Of a stretch of DNA of 64,000 bases, positions 1,855-58,626 are shown piece after piece; position 1 is the first letter of the stretch, and every line of letters starts with the position of its first letter. The position numbers and the translations under genes are program-made. Origin of the DNA: Gemmobacter lanyuensis (lineage in GTDB: Bacteria > Pseudomonadota > Alphaproteobacteria > Rhodobacterales > Rhodobacteraceae); the NCBI RefSeq assembly GCF_014652355.1, contig NZ_BMYQ01000001.1, positions 928,180 to 992,179 of the forward strand, read 5' to 3'. The notes under the pieces are model-generated. The model saw only the letters and a list, made by a program, of their open reading frames with translations, searched no databases and had not been told where the DNA came from.

Positions 1855-3366
1855 TCACAGACCCAGCTTCTGGGCCACCATCGCATTCACGACCGCCGGG
1901 TCCGCCTTGCCGCCGGTGGCCTTGAGGACCTGCCCGGTGAACCAGCCCGCGAGCTTCGCGTTGACCTTGGCCTTTTCCACCTGCGCGGGGTTGGCGGCGA
2001 TCAGATCATCCAGCGCCTTTTCGATGGCGCCGGTGTCGGTTACCGCCTTCATGCCGCGGGCGGCGGCCACTTCGGCCGGATCACCGCCTTCGGTCCAGAG
2101 GATCTCGAACAGCTCTTTCGCCATCTTGCCGGTGATCTCGCCCTTGGCGAGCAGGTCGAGCATGCCGCCCAGCTGCGCCGCGGAAACGGGGCTCTCTGCA
2201 ATGGCATGACCTTCCTTGTTGAGGCGGCCAAAGAGTTCGTTGATCACCCAGTTCGCGGCAATCTTGCCATCACGGCCACGGGCCACCTCTTCGAAGAAGG
2301 CGGCCGAATCAAGCTCGGCGGTCAGGACATTCGCGTCGTAATCGGTCAGACCGAAATCCGACATGAAGCGCGCCTTCTTGGCGTCGGGCAGTTCCGGCAT
2401 CCGGGCGGCAATGTCATCGACCCAGGCCTGATCTATTTCCAGCGGCAGCAGATCGGGGCACGGGAAGTAGCGGTAATCGTGCGCCTCTTCCTTGCTCCGC
2501 ATCGAGCGGGTTTCGTTCTTGTCCGGATCGTAGAGGCGGGTTTCCTGCACGACCTCGCCGCCGTCCTCCAGAATGGCGATCTGGCGGCGGGCCTCATAGT
2601 CGATGGCCATCTGGATGAAGCGCATGGAGTTCATGTTCTTCAGCTCACACCGCGTGCCGAGATGCGCGAAATCCTGCGTTTCCTGATACTTCTCATACTG
2701 GCCGGGGCGACAGACCGAGACGTTCACATCGGCCCGCAGGTTGCCGTTCTGCATGTTGCCATCGCAGGTGCCGAGATAGCGCAGGATCTGGCGCAGCTTG
2801 GCAACATAGGCCGCCGCCTCTTCCGGGCCGCGGATGTCGGGGCGGCTGACGATCTCCATCAGCGCCACGCCCGTGCGGTTGAAATCGACGAAGGACATGT
2901 TGGGGTCCATGTCATGGATCGACTTGCCCGCGTCCTGTTCCAGGTGGATGCGTTCGATCCGCACATGGCGCGCGATGCCCGGCCCCATTTCCACGATCAC
3001 CTCGCCCTCGCCCACGATGGGGTGATAGAGCTGGCTGATCTGATAGCCCTGCGGCAGGTCGGGGTAGAAATAATTCTTGCGGTCAAAGGCCGAACGCAGG
3101 TTGATCTGCGCCTTCAGCCCAAGGCCCGACCGGACCGCCTGTTCCACGCAATATTCGTTGATCACCGGCAGCATGCCCGGCATGGCGCAATCGACGAAGC
3201 TCACGTTGGAATTCGGCTCGGCGCCGACCTGGGTCGAGGCCCCCGAAAACAGCTTGGCATTCGAGGAAACCTGGGCATGGATCTCCATGCCGATCACCAG
3301 TTCCCAGTCATGTTTTGCCCCGGCAATCACCTTGGGCTTGGGCGCTTCATAGGTCAGGTCGAGCAT
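1855..3366 (-). CDS. gatB: Aspartyl/glutamyl-tRNA(Asn/Gln) amidotransferase subunit B
   Basis: 503 residues, the usual GatB length. GatB is the kinase/tRNA-recognition subunit of GatCAB, which converts Glu-tRNA(Gln) and Asp-tRNA(Asn) to the amidated forms in organisms that lack the direct synthetases. Landmarks are [13 protein letters not shown] near the N-terminus, the catalytic-cradle signature [17 protein letters not shown], and the C-terminal YqeY/GatB domain ending in [16 protein letters not shown]. It stands alone here; gatA and gatC are not in the window. Confidence 0.95.
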
Positions 3367-4191: not shown

Positions 4192-6756
4192 TCAGCCCAG
4201 CATCCGCGCGGTCATTTCCGACAGATCGCGGCTGAGGCCCGGAGTCGCGGCCATGCGCGACAGCTCGGCCCGGATCAGGGCCTGCCGCCCGGCATCATAG
4301 CGGCGCCAGGTTTCAAACGCGGTAGACATGCGCGCCGCCGTCTGCGGATTGCGCCCGTCCAGCCGCAAAAGCCAATCGGCCAAAAGCCGATAAGCCGCGC
4401 CATCCGCATGGTGGAAGCCCGCATGGTTTGCCGAGACGGCGCCAAAGACCGCACGGAAGCGGTTGGGGTTGTCCATGTTGAAATCGGCCCGCGCCGTCAG
4501 CTGTTCGACGGTTGCCGCCAGTTCGGCGGGCGGGGCATGGACGACCTGCACCATGAACCACTTGTCCATGACCAGCCGGTCAGCCTTCCATTCCGCCTCG
4601 AAGGCCGCCAGCGCCTCGGCCCCGGCGCCGATGTCAATCAGCGCCACCAGCGCCGCCAGACGGTCGGTCATGTTCGTGGCCGCGGCAAAGGCCGCACGGG
4701 CGGCTTCACCCCCGTCCAGCCGGGTTTGCAGCGCAAGGCAGGCATTGGCCAGCGCCCGCCGCCCGGCAGGCCCCGCCTCGGCCGAGAACGGCCCTGAGAC
4801 GGTCATCGCCGCGCGCAGGGCGGCCAGCTCTGCCCCCAAAGCCGCCGCCAGCGCATCGCCCATGCGCCGCCGAGCGGCATGGATCGCCGCCGGATCGGGC
4901 ACATGGCCCGCCGCCGCCAGCGTCGCCGCCAGATCATCCTCGGAGGGCAGCCGCAGCGCCAGCGCGCGGAAGGCGGGGTCGAGCGTGTCATCCGTCGCCA
5001 GTCGCGCCACCCCATCCAGCCAGGGGCGCGACACCGCGGCCCCGGTCACAACCATTTCGGCCAGCACCTCTTTGGCAAGGCTCCGCCCGGCTTCCCAGCG
5101 GTTGAAGGGGTCGGTGTCATGGGCCAGCAGGAAGGCGCGCGTCTCGGGGCTGACCGGATGGTCCAGCACGACCGGCGCCGAAAACCCGCGCAGGACCGAG
5201 GCGACCGGCCGCGCCCCCAAACCTTCAAAGCGGAAGCTCTGCTCCGCCTCGGTCAGCTCCAGGATGGTGGTCCCCAGCACCTCATCGCCATTGGGGTTCA
5301 GCAGGCCCACCGCCACCGGAATCACCTTGGCCCCCTTGTCCGGCTGTCCGGGCGTCGGCGGATTGTCCTGACGCAGAGTCAGGGTGAAGGTGCCGCCTGC
5401 CAGATCGGGCTGCCAGTCTTCCGCCACCTGCACGCGCGGGGTGCCCGCCTCGAAATACCAGCGGCTGAACTGCGTCAGGTCGCGCCCCGTCGCGTCCTGG
5501 AACACCGCCAGCCAATCCTCGATTGTCGCCGCCTGCCCGTCATGCCGGTCGAAATAGAGATCCAGCGCCCGGCGATAGCCATCCTCCCCCACGAGTCGTT
5601 TCAGCATGCCGATGATCTCGGCCCCTTTTTCATAGACCGTGGCGGTATAGAAATTGTTGATCTCGACAAAGCTGTCGGGTCGCACCGGATGGGCCAGCGG
5701 CCCCTGATCCTCACGGAACTGCCGCGCGCGCAGGGCCAGCACATCCTCGATCCGCTTCACCGCATGGCCGCGCAGATCGCCCGAGAACTGCTGATCCCGG
5801 AACACGGTCAGCCCCTCTTTCAGGCAAAGCTGGAACCAGTCGCGGCAGGTGATGCGATTGCCTGTCCAGTTATGGAAATATTCATGCGCGACGATGCTTT
5901 CGATCCGGGCGAATTCATCATCCGTCATGGTTTCCGGCGTTGCCAGCACGCATTTCGAATTGAAGATGTTCAGCCCCTTGTTCTCCATCGCGCCCATGTT
6001 GAAATCATCGACGGCGACGATGTTGAAGACATCAAGGTCATATTCGCGGCCATAGACCTCTTCGTCCCAGCGCATGGAGCGTTTGAGGCTCTCCATGCCC
6101 CAAGCACAGCGGTCCTCATCCCCCGGCCGCACCCAGATGTTCAGCGCGACCTGGCGCCCTGACCGCGTGGTAATCTGATCTGAATGGGCGATCAGATGCC
6201 CCGCCACCAGCGCGAACAGATAGGCCGGCTTCGGCCAAGGATCATCCCATTCGGCCCAGCCCGGCCCCGCGCCCAGCGGATTGCCATTGGACAGCAGCAC
6301 CGGCAAATCGCCCTCGATCCGCACGCGGAAACGGGCCATCACATCGGGGCGATCGGGGTAATAGGTGATCTTGCGGAACCCCTCGGCCTCGCATTGCGTG
6401 CAATACATGCCGTTTGACATGTAAAGCCCCTCCAGCGCGGTATTGCGGGCGGGCGCGATCTCGACCTCGGTTTCCAGCACGAAGGGCCCCTCGGGCAGAT
6501 CGGCGGCGGCAATCGTCAGGCCGCGCGCATCGGGCGTGGCCGCAATCGCACGCCCGCCGATGGTCACCGACAAAAGCCGCAGCTCCTCCCCATCCAAGCG
6601 CAGGTCATTGACGCCGGGCCGCGCCGGATTGGCATGCAAATGCAGCCGCGCCATGACCCGTGTGGCCTCGGGCTGCAGGCGGAAGGTCAGCTCGACCTGA
6701 TCCACGCAATAGGGAAAGGGCTGATAGTCCTTAAGGTAAACAGCAGTATCGGCCAT
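4192..6756 (-). CDS. pepN: Aminopeptidase N (M1 metallopeptidase)
   Basis: 854 residues, close to the usual size of bacterial PepN. It is a cytoplasmic zinc aminopeptidase that removes N-terminal residues from peptides. The exopeptidase motif GAMENKGLNIF is present, as is the zinc site VAHEYFHNWTGNRI (HEXXH) with its third ligand in LKEGLTVFRDQQF. The C-terminal half is the helical PepN-type domain. It lies 69 bp downstream of hypE in the same orientation, so some read-through from the hydrogenase genes is possible. Confidence 0.95.
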   Translation of the reverse strand: MADTAVYLKDYQPFPYCVDQVELTFRLQPEATRVMARLHLHANPARPGVNDLRLDGEELRLLSVTIGGRAIAATPDARGLTIAAADLPEGPFVLETEVEIAPARNTALEGLYMSNGMYCTQCEAEGFRKITYYPDRPDVMARFRVRIEGDLPVLLSNGNPLGAGPGWAEWDDPWPKPAYLFALVAGHLIAHSDQITTRSGRQVALNIWVRPGDEDRCAWGMESLKRSMRWDEEVYGREYDLDVFNIVAVDDFNMGAMENKGLNIFNSKCVLATPETMTDDEFARIESIVAHEYFHNWTGNRITCRDWFQLCLKEGLTVFRDQQFSGDLRGHAVKRIEDVLALRARQFREDQGPLAHPVRPDSFVEINNFYTATVYEKGAEIIGMLKRLVGEDGYRRALDLYFDRHDGQAATIEDWLAVFQDATGRDLTQFSRWYFEAGTPRVQVAEDWQPDLAGGTFTLTLRQDNPPTPGQPDKGAKVIPVAVGLLNPNGDEVLGTTILELTEAEQSFRFEGLGARPVASVLRGFSAPVVLDHPVSPETRAFLLAHDTDPFNRWEAGRSLAKEVLAEMVVTGAAVSRPWLDGVARLATDDTLDPAFRALALRLPSEDDLAATLAAAGHVPDPAAIHAARRRMGDALAAALGAELAALRAAMTVSGPFSAEAGPAGRRALANACLALQTRLDGGEAARAAFAAATNMTDRLAALVALIDIGAGAEALAAFEAEWKADRLVMDKWFMVQVVHAPPAELAATVEQLTARADFNMDNPNRFRAVFGAVSANHAGFHHADGAAYRLLADWLLRLDGRNPQTAARMSTAFETWRRYDAGRQALIRAELSRMAATPGLSRDLSEMTARMLG

Positions 6757-46354: not shown

Positions 46355-46666
46355 TCAGGCCCTCTTTCCCTTGGCGGCTTCTGCTTCGGCCTTGGCTTTC
46401 GCCGCCTCGGCTTCCGCTTTGGCAGCGGCTTCTGCTTCGGCCTTGGCTTTCGCCGCCTCGGCTTCCGCTTTGGCAGCGGCTTCTGCTTCGGCCTTGGCTT
46501 TCGCTGCTTCGGCTTTTTCCCTGTCCGCAGCGGCCTTCGCCTCAGCCTGATCCGCATTCTCGGCGGCACCAGCCGCAATGATTGCCTCAGCCACTGCATC
46601 ATCGAACCCAGCGACCTCGCCCGGCTGATACATCAAGTAGCCTTTCACGAACAGCAGCCGGATCAT
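46355..46666 (-). CDS. Ala/Lys/Glu repeat coiled-coil phage protein
   Basis: 103 residues. The first 40 residues (MIRLLFVKGYLMYQPGEVAG, DDAVAEAIIAAGAA) are a small folded head of the kind found in gp6-neighbour proteins that give small head genes. The remaining 60 are AEAEAAKAKA-type heptad-like repeats that should form a long charged helix. The repeat comes from a 51-bp tandem repeat in the DNA. The stop is 1 bp from the connector start; the start overlaps the previous stop (ATGA). Confidence 0.6.
   Translation of the reverse strand: MIRLLFVKGYLMYQPGEVAGFDDAVAEAIIAAGAAENADQAEAKAAADREKAEAAKAKAEAEAAAKAEAEAAKAKAEAEAAAKAEAEAAKAKAEAEAAKGKRA
46376..46510. repeat. 51-bp tandem repeat (2.6 units) in a phage head gene
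   Basis: Unit starts GGCTTCTGCTTCGGCCTTGG at 46376, 46427 and 46478. The first two units are identical over the full 51 bp; the third is cut after about 30 bp. Each codes 17 residues of Ala/Lys/Glu helix. Confidence 0.9.
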
Positions 46667-53449: not shown

Positions 53450-54202
53450 TCAAATCTGCTGCGGGACGTCAAATTCTTTTTTCCAGGGCGAGAGCGGCGG
53501 CAGCTGACCAGTGATCGCAACCGACGACAGATAGCCCGGCTGGCCGACGACATGGGCCAGATGCAGCAGCGCGCCATACCACCCGAGATAGGCCCGGCGC
53601 GCCGCCGCGACAGACCAGACGCCACCCGTAATACTGACCGGGCAGTAGGTCGCGCGCCCGGTGCGAACCCGGCTGCGAGCCGCGACGAACCGATACTCAT
53701 CGCCCTGTTCAACATGCGCCGACCAGCTGCCGTCATCCTGCAGATCCCAGCCCTTCGGAACAACACGACGACGCTCATCACCGCGCCAGTCAGGCGCCCC
53801 ACCGGCCCGCGCGCACTCCGCCACCAGCACGGCCATCCGCCGCCCGCCGCAACCCTCGGGCAGAGCCTCGACCGCCGCCGCGATCAGCTCGGCATCAGGA
53901 TGCACGCCCGACACCCCACCACCATCGACGTTGCAGCCCAGCCGGGCGCGCTGCATCAGCACATATTCCGGGCTGACACCGACCCGGTCGAACTGCCGCG
54001 CGCCGGTCAGGTCAAAGTCGATCCGCGCATGTTCCACCCCAAACGCCCATTCCAGCGCGCGCTGGATCGGCATCTCGCGCACCACGCGGCGCATCGGCTG
54101 TGCAACCCGCACCGCACGATGACCGACAACACGACCCGACTGACGATCAAAACCCATTGCCTGCACCACATCTTGTTTCATTTTCGCGCCATCAAACTGC
54201 AT
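53450..54202 (-). CDS. Phage protein of unknown function near the replication array
   Basis: 250 residues from ATG 54202. Contains VGVSPEYVLMQRARLGCNVD, PEGCGGRRMAVLVAECARAG and a Trp-rich C-terminal half (ITGGVWSVAAARRAYLGWYG). No motif identified. The gene lies directly downstream of the iteron array and upstream of a terminator, so it is the last gene of the early block. The frame is open into the array, but the ATG at 54202 is the natural start. Confidence 0.55.
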   Translation of the reverse strand: MQFDGAKMKQDVVQAMGFDRQSGRVVGHRAVRVAQPMRRVVREMPIQRALEWAFGVEHARIDFDLTGARQFDRVGVSPEYVLMQRARLGCNVDGGGVSGVHPDAELIAAAVEALPEGCGGRRMAVLVAECARAGGAPDWRGDERRRVVPKGWDLQDDGSWSAHVEQGDEYRFVAARSRVRTGRATYCPVSITGGVWSVAAARRAYLGWYGALLHLAHVVGQPGYLSSVAITGQLPPLSPWKKEFDVPQQI

Positions 54203-54579
54203 CTTGTTTCGCCTGACATTCTTATGGGGAGGATAGGGAGGATAGATGAAAGATTGGGGAGGTTTCTTTTCGCCGTTCTTTCCTATGTTTCCCTTTATTT
54301 TCATTGGCTTGATGAATGTTTGGGGAGGATGGGGAAGATGGGGAGGATATTTCAAACACATGTAAGACAGTCGCCGCCCTATACTGCCCCATACCCCAAT
54401 GAAGGCCCCTCACATGCGTTACGCGGAAATTGCTCCCCATACTCCCCATCCTCCCCGAAACAGGCGCAAGCCACTGATCCGCAAAGAAACTCACCCCTGA
54501 CCCCATGTTTTCGCCTTTCTCCCCACACATGCCGATATGCTCCCCATCCTCCCCGAACCGAGCGAGGGGTGCGGGGAAA
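54203..54579. other. 377-bp gene-free interval holding the iteron palindrome
   Basis: Non-coding interval between helicase and the next leftward gene. Minus-strand translation gives only repeat-derived SSPSSPSSP-like low-complexity peptide. Pyrimidine-rich, lower-GC tracts lie at 54265-54320. Confidence 0.75.
54226..54554. repeat. Mirror-symmetric array of twelve 9-bp iterons, candidate phage replication origin
   Basis: Left arm, consensus GGGGAGGAT: 54226, 54235 (A at first place); 54256 (GGGGAGGTT); 54322, 54331 (GGGGAAGAT), 54340. Right arm, inverted: 54430 (TTGCTCCCC), 54439 (ATACTCCCC), 54448; 54516 (TTTCTCCCC); 54537 (ATGCTCCCC), 54546. The grouping is 2-1-3 and 3-1-2 with gaps of 12 and 57 on the left and 59 and 12 on the right. 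The arms also share CAAGCCA(A/C)TGA and AAAG-GAAAC-like blocks, so the whole is an imperfect inverted duplication around 54390. Confidence 0.8.
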
Positions 54580-56439
54580 TCAGTCCTCATAGGCCGTGCG
54601 GCCCGCGATCGGGCGACCGTCCTGATCCCGTGGTGCGGCGCTGAACTTGGGACCAAAGACATCGTCAAAGCGGATGCCCGTGTAGGTCATCACGCCGTGT
54701 GACTTGACCGCGCTATAGCCCCGACCATCCCTTGGGCTGCGCCATCGGCCTGCCTTGTCCTTGATCCGGGTCGAGACCCTGCGCTCTGTCCATCGCCCTT
54801 CGCCGCGCGTCTCGAGCCAATAGTTGAATGCCTGCACCAGCTCGCGCGCGCCGATCCTGTCGGCATCATTGCCGGTGCACAGGCAGCAGCTGGCGATGAA
54901 TGCGCCAATCGGGTCGCTATCCTCGCGGTATTCCGCCGTCGCATCGCGCACCTGATCCGGTTCCTGCAGACCACCCTCCAGGTAGTCCATCAACCCATCG
55001 ACCAGCCACCGCAGAATACCGTCACGCTCCTCCCACAGCTTGGCGCCGAGGTCAGGGTCACGCTCGGCCTCTGGGATCTGCACATCCCATGGCACCAGCT
55101 TCATCCTGCGCCAAATGCCATCATCGGTGGACCGGATATCAGGCTTGTGGTTGCCGCTCATCGTCAGCTTGAAATACGGGTAGAGCCGGAAGAAGGCCCC
55201 GTAGTTTGGCCGCACCATGATCGGCTCGCCGGAGGTGATCGACTTGATCAGCGCATCCTGAAGCTGCTCACCCTCGCGCGGCTCACTGGCCCGGGCCATG
55301 CGCGCGCCGACCAGATAGACCAGATCGGGCGTTGCCTGAGCGCCGCTCTGGGTGTTCTTCCCTGTCAGCGTCTCAATCCGGATCTCGGCCGCATATTCGC
55401 CCAACATCTTGGCGATCAGCTCTGCCAGCACGGATTTGCCGTTGGCCCCGGCGCCATACCAAAACATCATGGCCTGGACCGGTATGCCGCTGATCGAAAG
55501 CCCCAACCAGCGCTGCAGGTATCGGCGCATCTCCTCCGAAGGCTGGACCCGTTCGAGAAACGCCATGAACCGCGGGCACTTGGCCCTCGGATCATAATGC
55601 GCGTGGATCACCTTCGAAATCCGGTCGCGCTTATCGTGGGGGTCCAGCCTGACTGAAGCCGTTTTCGAAAACCCAGAATCGCCGCCGCCCTGCACCTCGA
55701 ACCGCAGAACACCCGACAATGTGTTGACGGCCATCGGATCGGCATCGAGCTCTTCGTGACGCACGGCAAGGTGCGGCGCGGCCTCTTTCAGCGCCGCGTC
55801 AATTCGGCCAGAATTCCCCGCCGTCCGCGCGAAATTGCGATGCGCCTTGCGCTTGTCACCCAACACCTTCTTGATATCCGCGATTGCCTTCAGCTTCTTC
55901 TGGATATCGGATATCTCTTGCTCGGCCTCGGCTTCCGGCTTGCCATCTTCGGTGACCATGCCCTGCAATTCGACCATCCTGTCGCGCAGATCACGTTCCT
56001 TGCCAATGGCCTCCATCTGCCAATCTTCAAGCTGAAGCCACGGGATTTCCCGAGCGATCAGCTCGCCCAGCTCCTGCGCCTTGGCGCGCACGGCCAGCTG
56101 ATGCATGTCGATCTGGTAATGCGTCCCGCACCAGACGTGCCAGCCGAGGGTCGGGACCGAGATGACATCCTCGCCGAAATGCCGCACGTACCGTTGGCCA
56201 TTGCCAAAATCGTTCAGCGGCAGCGGCGCGCATTCCCGTTCGATCCCTTGCCCCTGATCATCCGCAGGGTGGTGCGGGGGCAGTGCAGGCTCATCCGGAT
56301 AGGGCGTATCCTCGTCACCCATGGGCGCGTCATGGTCGTCCGCCATGGCTGCAGCCTCAGCTGCGATGTCTTCCGGCAGATCGACGTCCTCTGCGGCAGA
56401 CATGACCTGCCGCACACGCCCCAAGTTGTCCTCTGTCAT
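54580..56439 (-). CDS. Phage D5-type primase-helicase (SF3 helicase)
   Basis: 619 residues from ATG 56439 with GAGGCGGGAA upstream; a GTG at 56451 overlaps the primase stop but is less likely. Helicase domain: D5_N-like region about 200-310, Walker A GAGANGKS (329-336), then LTMSGNHKPDIRSTDDGIWR (SF3 motif C region with Asn) and RMKLVPWDVQIPEAERDP. Acts as replicative helicase together with the split primase. Charged coiled coil at 140-200. The iteron array lies 25 bp after its stop. Confidence 0.88.
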   Translation of the reverse strand: MTEDNLGRVRQVMSAAEDVDLPEDIAAEAAAMADDHDAPMGDEDTPYPDEPALPPHHPADDQGQGIERECAPLPLNDFGNGQRYVRHFGEDVISVPTLGWHVWCGTHYQIDMHQLAVRAKAQELGELIAREIPWLQLEDWQMEAIGKERDLRDRMVELQGMVTEDGKPEAEAEQEISDIQKKLKAIADIKKVLGDKRKAHRNFARTAGNSGRIDAALKEAAPHLAVRHEELDADPMAVNTLSGVLRFEVQGGGDSGFSKTASVRLDPHDKRDRISKVIHAHYDPRAKCPRFMAFLERVQPSEEMRRYLQRWLGLSISGIPVQAMMFWYGAGANGKSVLAELIAKMLGEYAAEIRIETLTGKNTQSGAQATPDLVYLVGARMARASEPREGEQLQDALIKSITSGEPIMVRPNYGAFFRLYPYFKLTMSGNHKPDIRSTDDGIWRRMKLVPWDVQIPEAERDPDLGAKLWEERDGILRWLVDGLMDYLEGGLQEPDQVRDATAEYREDSDPIGAFIASCCLCTGNDADRIGARELVQAFNYWLETRGEGRWTERRVSTRIKDKAGRWRSPRDGRGYSAVKSHGVMTYTGIRFDDVFGPKFSAAPRDQDGRPIAGRTAYED

Positions 56440-56447
56440 TTCCCGCC

Positions 56448-57581
56448 TCACAAATCATCGGGGTGCGGGGCATCGGCGCCCACACCCAACAAAACGTCAT
56501 TCAGATCAACCCCGGCCCCGGCCATCACGATCTGACCGCGCAGCCCTGGCCGTAGCGCCATGGCGCGGCGCAGCCCCGCCAGCAGCTGGGCGCGTGTCAA
56601 TTTCGGCTCGCTGTCCCCATCCTGGACGTAGATCAGCCGCTCTACCCCGGGTGGCGGCACAAAGGCCTCGGCATCGCCCAGATCCGGCAAACCCGCATAT
56701 TTCAGGCCCTGCCCCAGTCGGCGCTGACCAGCCATGTTGCCGAGGCTGATCCCGGACCAATACCCGGCACCCGCCGGAACATCGGCGATCAAGGCGGTCA
56801 ACGTCGTCTCGATCCCCTCGCCCATGATCAGCACAGGGGCAGGCCGCGTCAGACGGATCGACCCGCCCTTGACGCTGCCCAGGGATTTCTTGACCTTGAC
56901 CCGCTCACCCGTCGTCGGGTGCAGGATGACCGGCTTGCCCTTGGGCGCGCTCACGTCAAACCAGGTGCGATGGACACCCTGAAACCGGCCATCCGGCCCC
57001 TGAATCGCGGCCAGCATGGCAGGCCCGCGATGGACCTGAACCCATTTGCGATCGACCTGCACCGTATAGGCCAGATCCGGGTGATACCGCAGCGCGATCG
57101 GCATGCGTGGGTAAAGCGCCTGGGGAATGCCCCGCAGGGCGAGATAGTCATGCACCGGCGACCCTTGGGCGCTGACAGCGGCCTGCCAAATCTCGCGCGC
57201 CCCACGGATTGCCTCGGCCCGCTCTGCCCGGGCGCGCTCCTCGTTGCGCCGGCGGTTTTCCTCGGCCTGCCGCTCACGGGCGCGGCGCTCCTCTGGCGAT
57301 ACACCCTCCAACGACCCACACAGCCATTCCAACGCCGCACGGAAATCCATGCCCATGACGAACATGACCAGATCGATTGACCCGCCCCCGGCACCGCATT
57401 TGCGGCAGCCGAACACGCGCTTCTGAGTGTTGATCCCAAACCGGTCTGTCCCGCCACAGCGCGGGCAAGGCCCGATCATCTCGCGCCCTGCCCGCGCCAG
57501 ACGCTGGATCGCCAGACGGTCGGCAACCTCCGCGATATCCATTGCCTGCGCCTCGGCCACCCTCGGATCGTCGCGCACCAT
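56448..57581 (-). CDS. Phage DNA primase with zinc finger and Toprim domain
   Basis: 377 residues from ATG 57581. CHC2-like zinc finger: CPRCGGTDRF and CRKCGAGGGSIDL; helical region with Arg/Glu-rich coiled coil; Toprim domain with VLIMGEGIETTLTAL (catalytic Glu) and IYVQDGDSE (DxD). It makes RNA primers. In P4-like phages primase and helicase are one protein; here they are two genes with adjacent ends. Confidence 0.88.
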   Translation of the reverse strand: MVRDDPRVAEAQAMDIAEVADRLAIQRLARAGREMIGPCPRCGGTDRFGINTQKRVFGCRKCGAGGGSIDLVMFVMGMDFRAALEWLCGSLEGVSPEERRARERQAEENRRRNEERARAERAEAIRGAREIWQAAVSAQGSPVHDYLALRGIPQALYPRMPIALRYHPDLAYTVQVDRKWVQVHRGPAMLAAIQGPDGRFQGVHRTWFDVSAPKGKPVILHPTTGERVKVKKSLGSVKGGSIRLTRPAPVLIMGEGIETTLTALIADVPAGAGYWSGISLGNMAGQRRLGQGLKYAGLPDLGDAEAFVPPPGVERLIYVQDGDSEPKLTRAQLLAGLRRAMALRPGLRGQIVMAGAGVDLNDVLLGVGADAPHPDDL

Positions 57582-57582
57582 G

Positions 57583-58626
57583 TCAGCGCACCGCGGCAGC
57601 TGACTGCGCGCGAATCCGCAGCACCTCGAGCAGCGTCTGCTGACCGTCAATCGTCACACGGCCGCGCGGGTCACGGATGGGGCGCGACAGCTCCTCAAAG
57701 CGCAAATGCGCCGAAAACGTGTCGCAGCCGAGGTCCGCACAGATCTCGCCCAACTTGAGACCGCCCGCCAGCCCCTCGACCAGATCGAGGTCCGTCTTTG
57801 CGTTCCACTCTTTGCGATAGCCGATCCGCACCAGATGCTCATAAAGCACCCGCTGCTTCGGCAGCATGTGGGGCAAGGGTGCTGCGCCGCCAGCCTTCGG
57901 CGCAGCGCTCTGTGAGACCCCGTTGGCAGCGGCGCAAGGCCCACTCTCGCCGCCACCTTCACAGAGCACGGGGGTTTCGCCTGCATCAGACACCGGGAGG
58001 GAGGACCTGGCATCTGCGCCCGAGGCATGACCAACCCCGGCTTCGGCGGGCTGGCCCGCATCGGATTTCTTGGCGCGCAGGATCGATGCAATGGTCTGCA
58101 CCCGGCGCCGCGTCTCTTTCGCAATCTCATGCGCGCTAAGGCCACGGGCGGCCATCTCACGCACCACAGCCTTCTCGCCGTCGGTCATCGGCCCAAGAAT
58201 CGGCTCACCGCCCTCAGCCCCCTCAGCCCTAAGGGGCGCGACCGGCACGGCGGTGACAGCCTCAGGAACCGCCTCAGCCGCGGCCTCTGGCACGGCCTGA
58301 GCCACGGCTGCGGTCACAGACCGAGCCGATCGCACAAAACGGCAAAACGGCTCAGGATCCATGCGGGGCGGAACCACATCGACCACCTGCTGCACAACCG
58401 GCGCCGGATCAGCGGCAGGCTCCAGCACGAAGGGCGGTGGGGGCCCGAACTCGACCGCCGCAGGCATGGTCCACCCCGTCCGGATCACCGCCTCGCGCCC
58501 CGGCACGATGCTGATCACAACATCCAGACGCAGGCTCGCCTCGATCCGCCCGGCGGCATCCGCAATATGACCCAGTTGCCCCAGCAGAGCCCGCAGATCA
58601 TCCACGCTCATCTCGGTCAAATTCAT
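57583..58626 (-). CDS. Phage early protein with HTH, unknown
   Basis: 347 residues. The middle has EMAARGLSAHEIAKETRRRV, a helix-turn-helix of the homeodomain-like type, between two Ala/Pro/Val-rich flexible regions. The C-terminal 100 residues form a folded domain (LVEGLAGGLKLGEICADLGC, LRFEELSRPIRDPRGRVTID). A DNA-binding replication accessory is possible. Stop is 1 bp before the primase start codon. Confidence 0.6.
   Translation of the reverse strand: MNLTEMSVDDLRALLGQLGHIADAAGRIEASLRLDVVISIVPGREAVIRTGWTMPAAVEFGPPPPFVLEPAADPAPVVQQVVDVVPPRMDPEPFCRFVRSARSVTAAVAQAVPEAAAEAVPEAVTAVPVAPLRAEGAEGGEPILGPMTDGEKAVVREMAARGLSAHEIAKETRRRVQTIASILRAKKSDAGQPAEAGVGHASGADARSSLPVSDAGETPVLCEGGGESGPCAAANGVSQSAAPKAGGAAPLPHMLPKQRVLYEHLVRIGYRKEWNAKTDLDLVEGLAGGLKLGEICADLGCDTFSAHLRFEELSRPIRDPRGRVTIDGQQTLLEVLRIRAQSAAAVR

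Follow-up and report, generated by a model that had tools for sequence, protein, structure and literature searches.

A prophage in the window (the whole stretch of 64,000 nucleotides analysed here) contains an array of twelve 9-mers in two facing arms, which lies between the gene of a D5-type helicase and the next gene, both transcribed in the same direction. With a probability of roughly 87%, we consider this array to be a phage replication origin that would be read by the D5/SF3-type helicase encoded directly upstream, with one hexamer per arm, a reading drawn from comparative sequence analysis. It is based on the position of the array, on the covariation of its sites with the helicase, on the situation in Paracoccus phage Pben1, on intact arrays displaced from the helicase gene, and on the annotated origins of phages A2, phi-adh and Sfi21.

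The array and its surroundings

The array spans positions 54226-54554 and comprises six sites on each strand, in groups of 2-1-3 and 3-1-2. A word scan of the window confirmed this arrangement of twelve near-identical 9-mers, which the sequence-only reading had described, and all twelve sites have at most one mismatch to the consensus GGGGAGNAT; the gaps of 12/57 and 59/12 given in that reading were exact. The sites, each located by the word scan and by the template fit described below, are as follows.

54546..54554, minus strand, helicase-proximal arm, outer site 1, GGGGAGGAT
54537..54545, minus strand, helicase-proximal arm, outer site 2, GGGGAGCAT
54516..54524, minus strand, helicase-proximal arm, single site, GGGGAGAAA
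54448..54456, minus strand, helicase-proximal arm, triple site 1, GGGGAGGAT
54439..54447, minus strand, helicase-proximal arm, triple site 2, GGGGAGTAT
54430..54438, minus strand, helicase-proximal arm, triple site 3, GGGGAGCAA
54340..54348, plus strand, distal arm, triple site nearest the centre, GGGGAGGAT
54331..54339, plus strand, distal arm, middle site of the triple, GGGGAAGAT
54322..54330, plus strand, distal arm, outer site of the triple, GGGGAGGAT
54256..54264, plus strand, distal arm, single site, GGGGAGGTT
54235..54243, plus strand, distal arm, outer site 2, AGGGAGGAT
54226..54234, plus strand, distal arm, outer site 1, GGGGAGGAT

The start-to-start steps are 9, 21, 66, 9 and 9 in the plus-strand arm and, mirrored, 9, 21, 68, 9 and 9 in the minus-strand arm, and the innermost starts of the two arms are 90 apart. 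The scan with GGGGAGNAT, allowing at most one mismatch, gave a thirteenth match (GGGCAGTAT at 54381), which lies unphased in the centre.

Same-strand pairs of the 9-mer spaced by 9 bp were found six times in the window, all within the array, and not once in any of 20 Markov shuffles. The loose count was not significant, since GGGGAGGAT with one mismatch occurred 33 times against 24.4 expected and 8 of 100 shuffles reached 33; single copies lie also outside the array (for example at 5581). It is the clustering and phasing of the 9-mers, rather than their loose count, that is beyond chance. The doubled word GGGGAGGATGGGGA (1 mismatch) occurs at six places in the 4.03-Mb genome, every one of them inside the array.

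The neighbouring genes are the following.

54580..56451, minus strand, D5_N/DUF5906 (SF3-type) helicase of 623 amino acids, the proposed initiator (Pfam, PHROGs, covariation)
56448..57650, minus strand, primase with a CHC2 zinc finger (PF01807) and DUF7146, in a gene separate from that of the helicase (Pfam, PHROGs)
53450..54361, minus strand, downstream ORF of PHROG 9306, function unassigned (ORF list, PHROGs)

The helicase, for which PF08706 and PF19263 were over the Pfam cut-off, is the second gene of a split pair and is preceded by the CHC2 zinc-finger primase; the first site of the array lies 25 bp past its stop codon. Past the array come the PHROG 9306 ORF, an HNH endonuclease and the terminase genes. 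The listed start of the PHROG 9306 ORF falls inside the array; this start is probably mechanical, and translation probably begins at the ATG of MQFDGAK slightly below 54210. An ORF among the structural genes (46355-46666) has long repeats of an AKAEAEAA-type unit, of low complexity and probably forming a coiled coil. A Pfam scan of eight neighbouring proteins, four of which had no family at all, found no Rep-type family, and an iteron plasmid origin was rejected because this initiator is absent among them and the iterons stand in two facing arms, not as direct repeats.

Conservation of the layout and of further elements

Helicase relatives were taken from phage records, genome contigs, IMG/VR (one search of which gave 432 matches, the best 80 being used) and three overlapping draws of 394, 390 and 385 genomes. 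From the 141 loci with a helicase ORF, 3 with less than 250 nt downstream and 32 near-duplicates were dropped, and 106 were kept: 86 with a helicase at least 41% identical to that of the window (its own copy included) and 20 below this value. In a motif-free test, with pairs summed over both strands within 520 nt of the helicase stop codon, 79 of the 86 loci had at least four 9-bp-spaced pairs of one 6-mer present on both strands; any other spacing from 5 to 24 was found in at most 24 of the 86, and 9-bp pairs in the next 380 nt in 10 of 84.

We then fitted a rigid template derived from the window (9, about 21, about 67, 9, 9, a centre of about 85, 9, 9, about 67, about 21, 9), scored by the self-consistency of each locus' own twelve 9-mers with a maximum of 108. 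The sequence-only reading, which had proposed a helicase-linked origin, had named the lack of such an array next to homologous helicases as the result that would speak against it; the full layout was found at 76 of the 86 related loci with scores of 78-107, 64 of them in the first search and 12 in a wider search from 250 nt before to 1,500 nt after the helicase stop codon. The window itself scored 99, and the shuffle maxima were 73 (636 shuffles over all loci, first search) and 72 (66 shuffles, wider search). The threshold of 78 was set after shuffles had been seen to reach 73, and at 75 the first-search count would be 69, not 64. Ten of the 86 loci were below the threshold (L074, L079, L083, L007, L101, L113, L115, L130, L133 and L141). 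In L007 (Rhodobacter phage RcapNL, 5107-5174), no more than about 20 bp separate the right triple from the annotated cohesive end. The linear record thus cuts the proposed origin, and the missing outer sites would be at the start of the record.

Over the 76 loci, the step of the outer pair is 9, the next is 20-22 in 75 loci (23 in one), the next 64-69, followed by 9 and 9; the centre is 75-97 in 72 loci, and the corresponding steps of the mirrored arm are 64-70 and 19-23, for which the template permitted 64-71 and 19-23. Good matches were present at each of the twelve positions in 59-69 of the 76 loci. When the sites were judged one by one and more strictly, 58 of the 76 loci had ten or more good sites and only 18 had all twelve, six in both arms; a strict requirement for exactly six per arm does not follow from these counts. 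An earlier layout call had the single site of one arm reversed in 7 of 55 loci with facing triples. The distal-arm single site is called in reverse in L012, L028, L029, L104, L107, L111 and L120, most of which have distances of about 60 and 27 where the others have about 67 and 21. Six loci (L025, L039, L081, L082, L087 and L088) have the array starting 278-625 bp past the helicase stop codon with the geometry intact.

Among the 20 distant loci, L012 (86) and L060 (78) reached the threshold, and L056, L057, L058, L060 and L069 have 9-bp-spaced sites in other layouts. The helicases of L056, L058, L060 and L069 are 33-36% identical and the site words are unrelated (TGACGCTTG, GGGACAGTT, GTGTAGGGT); in L069, a long CGCGCG-type run lies between the arms. 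A 6-bp period in the 20 distant loci was discarded, as it came mainly from CGCGCG-type runs where the winning words were inspected. The same helicase module and 12-site layout as in phages of Rhodobacter relatives were seen in three records named as Pseudanabaena, Nostoc and Microcystis phages (L009, L010 and L015); speculatively, these phages may in truth infect a heterotroph present in the culture.

A generic search for facing arrays in the window and 15 other regions (60 shuffles each) was noisy. The score was above the best shuffle in the window (13 versus 11), Eponine (8 versus 6) and Honk (15 versus 11), the Honk winner being a low-complexity CGACGAG word in mixed order, and not above it in L4768, Brahms, R4C, RcCronus, RR1-A and the Listeria phage; homopolymer-like words won in A2, Sfi21, phi-adh, phi105, A9Y and P4 crr. 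When 10 such regions were scanned for periodicity, most lacked a 9-bp array, L4768 being an exception; RR1-A has neither a gap nor an array. The GC skew of two relatives, Pan4 and Pthi1, gave no origin signal. Paracoccus phage Pthi1 carries a protein annotated as DNA polymerase III beta subunit (L172:5627-6745).

An unsupervised motif search over the 66 loci that reached 78 in the first search, whatever their helicase identity, pointed to further elements, which in the window are the following.

54349..54429, strand not assigned, central segment between the triples, with TACGCGCG-type and G-run elements conserved across the 66 loci (motif search)
54467..54479, minus strand, IHF-like element GATCAGTGGCTTG, 7/9 to WATCAANNNNTTR, 23 nt before the proximal triple (consensus scan, motif search)
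54299..54311, plus strand, partial mirror of the IHF-like element in the distal gap, TTTCATTGGCTTG with a TGGCTTG block (sequence, inverted pair)
54494..54504, minus strand, direct G-run element GGGGTCAGGGG in the proximal gap (sequence; conserved)
54387..54397, minus strand, direct G-run element GGGGTATGGGG in the centre (sequence; conserved)
54566..54576, minus strand, CCCCGCACCCC just past the helicase stop codon (sequence; related pattern conserved)

In the helicase-side gap, WTCARNGGSTTR lies 21-24 nt before the triple in 60 of the 66 loci (12.3 bits versus 5.0-5.4 in shuffles), and the element at 54467..54479 corresponds to it. A looser form occupies the other gap, in both orientations (8.0 bits versus 5.1-5.2); in the distal gap of the window, the IHF scan preferred an equally weak match on the other strand over 54299..54311. 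WTCARNGGSTTR contains most of WATCAANNNNTTR, the consensus sequence of IHF, and both IHF subunits are encoded in the genome; IHF may bind this gap element. The centre contains TACGCGCGCGCG, for the most part 9-12 nt inward of the helicase-side triple, and, 8-10 nt inward of the opposite triple, CTACGCATGAG in 45 of the 66 loci. The pattern GGGG-N(1-3)-GGG occurs in the helicase-side gap of 55 of the 66 loci, against 5.0 expected, and in the centre of 41, against 2.8 expected; its counterpart on the other strand occurs in none of these gaps and in one centre, and past the stop codon a related inverse pattern is present in 45 loci (2.8 expected). The mean AT content over the 66 loci is 45% in the centre, which is only mildly AT-rich, 33% further downstream, 55% in the distal gap and 52-53% next to the triples.

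The sequence-only reading had noted CAAGCCA-TGA blocks shared by the gaps and concluded that a unit of roughly 330 bp had been duplicated in inverted form. The shared block is real (54467-54477 and 54301-54311, 91% complementary) and is part of the element seen in relatives; the duplication was not borne out, as the complementarity of the two 58-bp gaps is 0.353, against 0.345 between different loci (76 loci). The same comparison bears on an origin recognised by shape, with the inverted arms forming a hairpin or cruciform as proposed for pRN1. Folding of the strand was better than that of every one of 100 shuffles (z = -5.4), and sites that are mirror partners resemble each other slightly more than other pairs across the arms do (0.789 versus 0.741; per-locus difference 0.048, SE 0.007), as such a structure would have it. 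However, the fold is already predicted by the inverted sites alone, the gaps are complementary at background only, and the G-run element occurs in one gap only (55 of 66, versus 0 of 66 in mirror orientation in the other), leaving this explanation a very slim chance. A hairpin origin was rejected on the gap complementarity although the strand folds well, and a pRN1-type stem-loop likewise, because a continuous stem needs complementary gaps. An RNA element was also discarded, Rfam giving four implausible matches, all below threshold.

Covariation with the helicase and proposed initiation

The 9-mers of the 76 loci fall into about six classes of 36, 26, 7, 3, 3 and 1 loci by average linkage at a cut-off of 0.3, although the class number ranges from 3 to 19 over the cut-offs tried. 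The three largest classes are GGGGAGGAT-like, GGGCCTGA/CGGCCCGA-like and GGGGCAGA-like; the 43 different consensus strings are an inflated count because the registers are unaligned. Iteron similarity was compared with the helicase in the 54 loci of alignment A2 having a first-search score of at least 78. The correlation with overall helicase identity was low (rho = 0.09), and the top 15-column window was at residues 574-589 (partial r = 0.32, and 0.33 in the comparison with the control proteins, n = 54), followed by 579-594 (0.27) and by 519-533 and 554-568 (0.23). Eleven of the 12 best windows are within 499-599, the remaining one, at 189-203 (0.18), being also above the 95% permutation level; the three lowest, in the ATPase core at 429-458, had values of -0.02 to -0.06. 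In 200 permutations, which ignore the relatedness of the loci, the best-window maximum was 0.186 and the 95% level 0.125. The best windows of the control proteins were 0.06 for the primase (n = 42; the helicase gave 0.39 in the same 42 loci) and 0.096 for the downstream protein (n = 53). The correlations are not independent events, because the loci share ancestry, and the control genes share much of that ancestry without such correlations. A cruder per-column ranking placed 20 of the top 30 columns outside 530-605. Since the iterons track the C-terminal part of the helicase and hardly the primase or the downstream protein, the helicase is most likely the protein reading the 9-mers, as judged from these alignments.

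Residue patterns at the C-terminus follow some of the classes. KSG-VTGYRGIRL was found in eight of nine GGGCNTGA loci, L091 being the exception with KRG-ATGYRGIRL; all ten CGGCCCGA loci carry K[RQ][DERTK] at this place, all six GGGGCAGA loci have KR[NV]G, and the large GGGAGGAT class has mixed residue patterns. Prophages L091 and L094, from the same IMG/VR genome number, have helicases 97.5% identical, with 19 differences, of which 8 fall in an N-terminal stretch and 9 within the final ~35 positions of the alignment; at 11 of the 12 template sites in each, the iteron begins with G for the one prophage and with C for the other. L088 and L096 also come from a single genome number (G589 contains L043 and L054, the near-duplicates of the two), and their helicases are identical over about the last 95 aligned residues, with iterons that nearly throughout differ at base 1 (AGGGCCNGA versus CGGCCCGAA). 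This pair was outside the covariation test because L096 is not in alignment A2 and L088 is below the first-search threshold. A one-residue specificity rule at the position of H585 of the window fits L091/L094 and is contradicted by L088/L096, and was abandoned; a simple one-residue code is therefore unsupported, and base 1 is read elsewhere or not read. Both pairs look like avoidance of cross-talk, yet the second has the same C-terminal residues.

The sites might instead be read by a host initiator or another phage protein (DnaA-like or an iteron-plasmid Rep, for example), the helicase being loaded afterwards. The G-run, TACGCG and IHF-like elements, which are common to the iteron classes, may indeed be read by other proteins, but the covariation singles out the helicase among the three phage proteins tested, a host protein is not expected to follow several iteron classes, and the Pfam scan of the eight neighbours (four without a family) gave no Rep-type candidate; we regard this explanation as quite improbable.

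Paracoccus phage Pben1 bears on a second alternative, an operator array, with the 9-mers bound by a regulator from phage or host that controls transcription of the helicase operon or the downstream gene, and with replication starting elsewhere. A stretch of 177 bp of the downstream region of the window is matched at 75% in Pben1 gene p34, which lies two genes behind an annotated different and shorter replication protein, with p33 between, and no 9-bp array was present in the 413 nt examined behind the shorter replication gene. CTGTAA/TTACAG repeats are seen there instead (L014:4740-5040). An operator would suit the place between two co-directional genes, where a promoter could lie. Against it, the downstream-region match in Pben1 occurs without the array, one gene further on behind another replication protein; the six displaced arrays keep their geometry 278-625 bp past the helicase stop codon; the iterons follow the C-terminal part of the helicase (0.33), not the downstream protein (0.096); and the mirror-image six-plus-six layout is, in our judgement, not operator-like. 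We therefore consider an operator highly improbable and retain the reading as a helicase-linked origin.

Beside the observed sites, geometry, conservation and C-terminal covariation peak, we propose a mechanism in conditional terms. The C-terminal DNA-binding part of each helicase subunit would bind one 9-mer; with six sites per arm, we infer that one hexamer would be assembled per arm and, as the arms face each other, that two rings would load in opposite orientations across the ~80-bp centre. The result would be a double hexamer; SV40 T antigen is known to form one, and the same has been suggested for SaPI Rep. In each arm, the ~58-bp gap would probably be bent by IHF or a similar protein, which would bring the outer 2+1 sites beside the inner three. 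The rings would then melt the centre, where 54349..54429 is the candidate zone of melting and fork start, and the separate zinc-finger primase would prime both forks, giving a bidirectional start.

A stronger version treats the array as a ruler, in which 6+6 sites at fixed distances (9, 21, 67, 9, 9) would specify two helicase hexamers with one subunit per site and a bend in each 58-bp gap would fold 3+3 sites into one ring. Selection would then fix the geometry together with the IHF-like, G-run and TACGCG elements, and iteron and helicase C-terminus would drift together into replicon classes, so that near-identical prophages could share one cell. We put this forward tentatively, giving it somewhat less than an even chance.

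SF3/D5-type helicases self-load on origins as hexamers, and the loci compared here bear on how, in bacteria, sites would be counted and two opposed rings formed. The present set comprises dozens of probable natural origins with one geometry and several iteron classes, each with a matching helicase, and site number, spacing and specificity are thereby directly testable in small, non-pathogenic hosts such as Rhodobacter and Paracoccus. The natural iteron/helicase pairs are useful for studying replicon independence, and a 9-bp-phased facing array behind a D5 gene gives a rule for finding origins in unannotated prophages.

Comparison with known systems

Origins directly downstream of primase or helicase genes are already known (A2, phi-adh, Sfi21). 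The apparent novelty lies in the conserved ruler-like arrangement of twelve sites, six in each arm, and in the fixed TACGCG, G-run and IHF-like elements. To our knowledge, and in the mainly open-access literature searched, no hexamer-counting origin has been described in bacteria. Such an array is not reported for RcapNL or Pthi1 in the accessible parts of PMC8601537 and PMC6536676, nor in those searches.

The records of Lactobacillus phages A2 and phi-adh and of Streptococcus phage Sfi21 have origins annotated directly downstream of primase or polymerase/primase genes, and the helicase search found A2 and phi-adh to be D5 relatives. These three origins have been tested experimentally. They resemble the array in their place relative to the gene and in having facing iteron arms around a centre; the facing repeats of phi-adh and Sfi21 were seen by reading, those of Sfi21 also by a targeted scan. 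The annotated A2 origin contains CGGGAGGAT, nearly the same 9-mer as in the window, in two facing arms; the 354 nt past the stop codon contain six sites with no more than one mismatch (0.06 expected). Allowing two mismatches, the plus-strand sites of A2 (L152) start at 2839 (2 mismatches), 2857, 2869 and 2933, and the minus-strand sites at 3006, 3014 (2 mismatches), 3070 (1) and 3082 (1), with steps of 18, 12, 64, 73, 8, 56 and 12. Nearly the same steps were found in phage CL2 with ACGGATG (12, 63 with one extra match between, 72, 9, 55, 12, 9), whose score of 9 only equalled the best of 60 shuffles. A2, phi-adh and Sfi21 differ from the window in having fewer inner sites and an AT-rich core, and the 2-1-3/3-1-2 pattern was not seen there; A2 and CL2 have a 12-bp outer step, and A2 and phi-adh long primase-helicase proteins.

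SaPI5 Rep and Cch2 are self-loading helicases of the D5/Primase_Cterm kind, whose C-terminal domain is reported to bind duplex iterons directly downstream of their own gene, and SaPI Rep appears to bind as two hexamers (PMC7581432). The SaPI origins are described at the place of the array, directly downstream of the helicase gene; the putative origin of SCCmec Cch2 differs from the array in having three 5-nt iterons in a 23-bp direct-repeat region (PMC7581432). The sequence-only reading had taken the 9-bp spacing, which does not match one helix turn, as an argument against ordinary double-strand contacts, and this argument is not supported in view of the reported duplex binding of the related helicases through their C-terminal domain (PMC7581432), the covariation peak in the C-terminal part and the 9-bp-spaced sites of P4 crr. 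Its statement that no described system has such a layout also needs revision, since the annotated origins of A2, phi-adh and Sfi21, the facing CGGGAGGAT arms of A2 and the SaPI origins resemble the array.

In P4, crr lies directly downstream of the alpha gene and has 8-bp type-1 repeats, with one 9-bp-spaced pair per unit (4314/4323); alpha binds the repeats with a winged-helix domain (PMC4234260). The array differs from it, as the sequence-only reading had held: crr consists of two direct copies of a 120-bp unit with sites in mixed orientation, and a separate ori lies ~4.5 kb away. Primase and helicase are in one protein in P4, whereas the primase of the window (56448-57650) is a separate gene. 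An origin of the P4 ori/crr type was rejected, the window having one inverted array and the doubled word occurring nowhere else in the genome. The origin of pRN1 also lies directly downstream of a gene with an SF3 helicase and a C-terminal winged helix, but is a 100-nt stem-loop without iterons (PMC4234260).

The six sites per arm, as counted in the sequence, would be in keeping with a double hexamer of the T antigen/E1 type. The SV40 T antigen origin differs from the array in site number and geometry. Like the model proposed here, SV40 large T antigen is an SF3 helicase that forms two opposed hexamers on the origin (PMC9894130), but its origin-binding domain is N-terminal to the helicase. Of the plan of D5/SF3-helicase-linked origins (A2, phi-adh, SaPI), the D5-type helicase gene directly upstream and the facing iteron arms around a central segment are present in the window.
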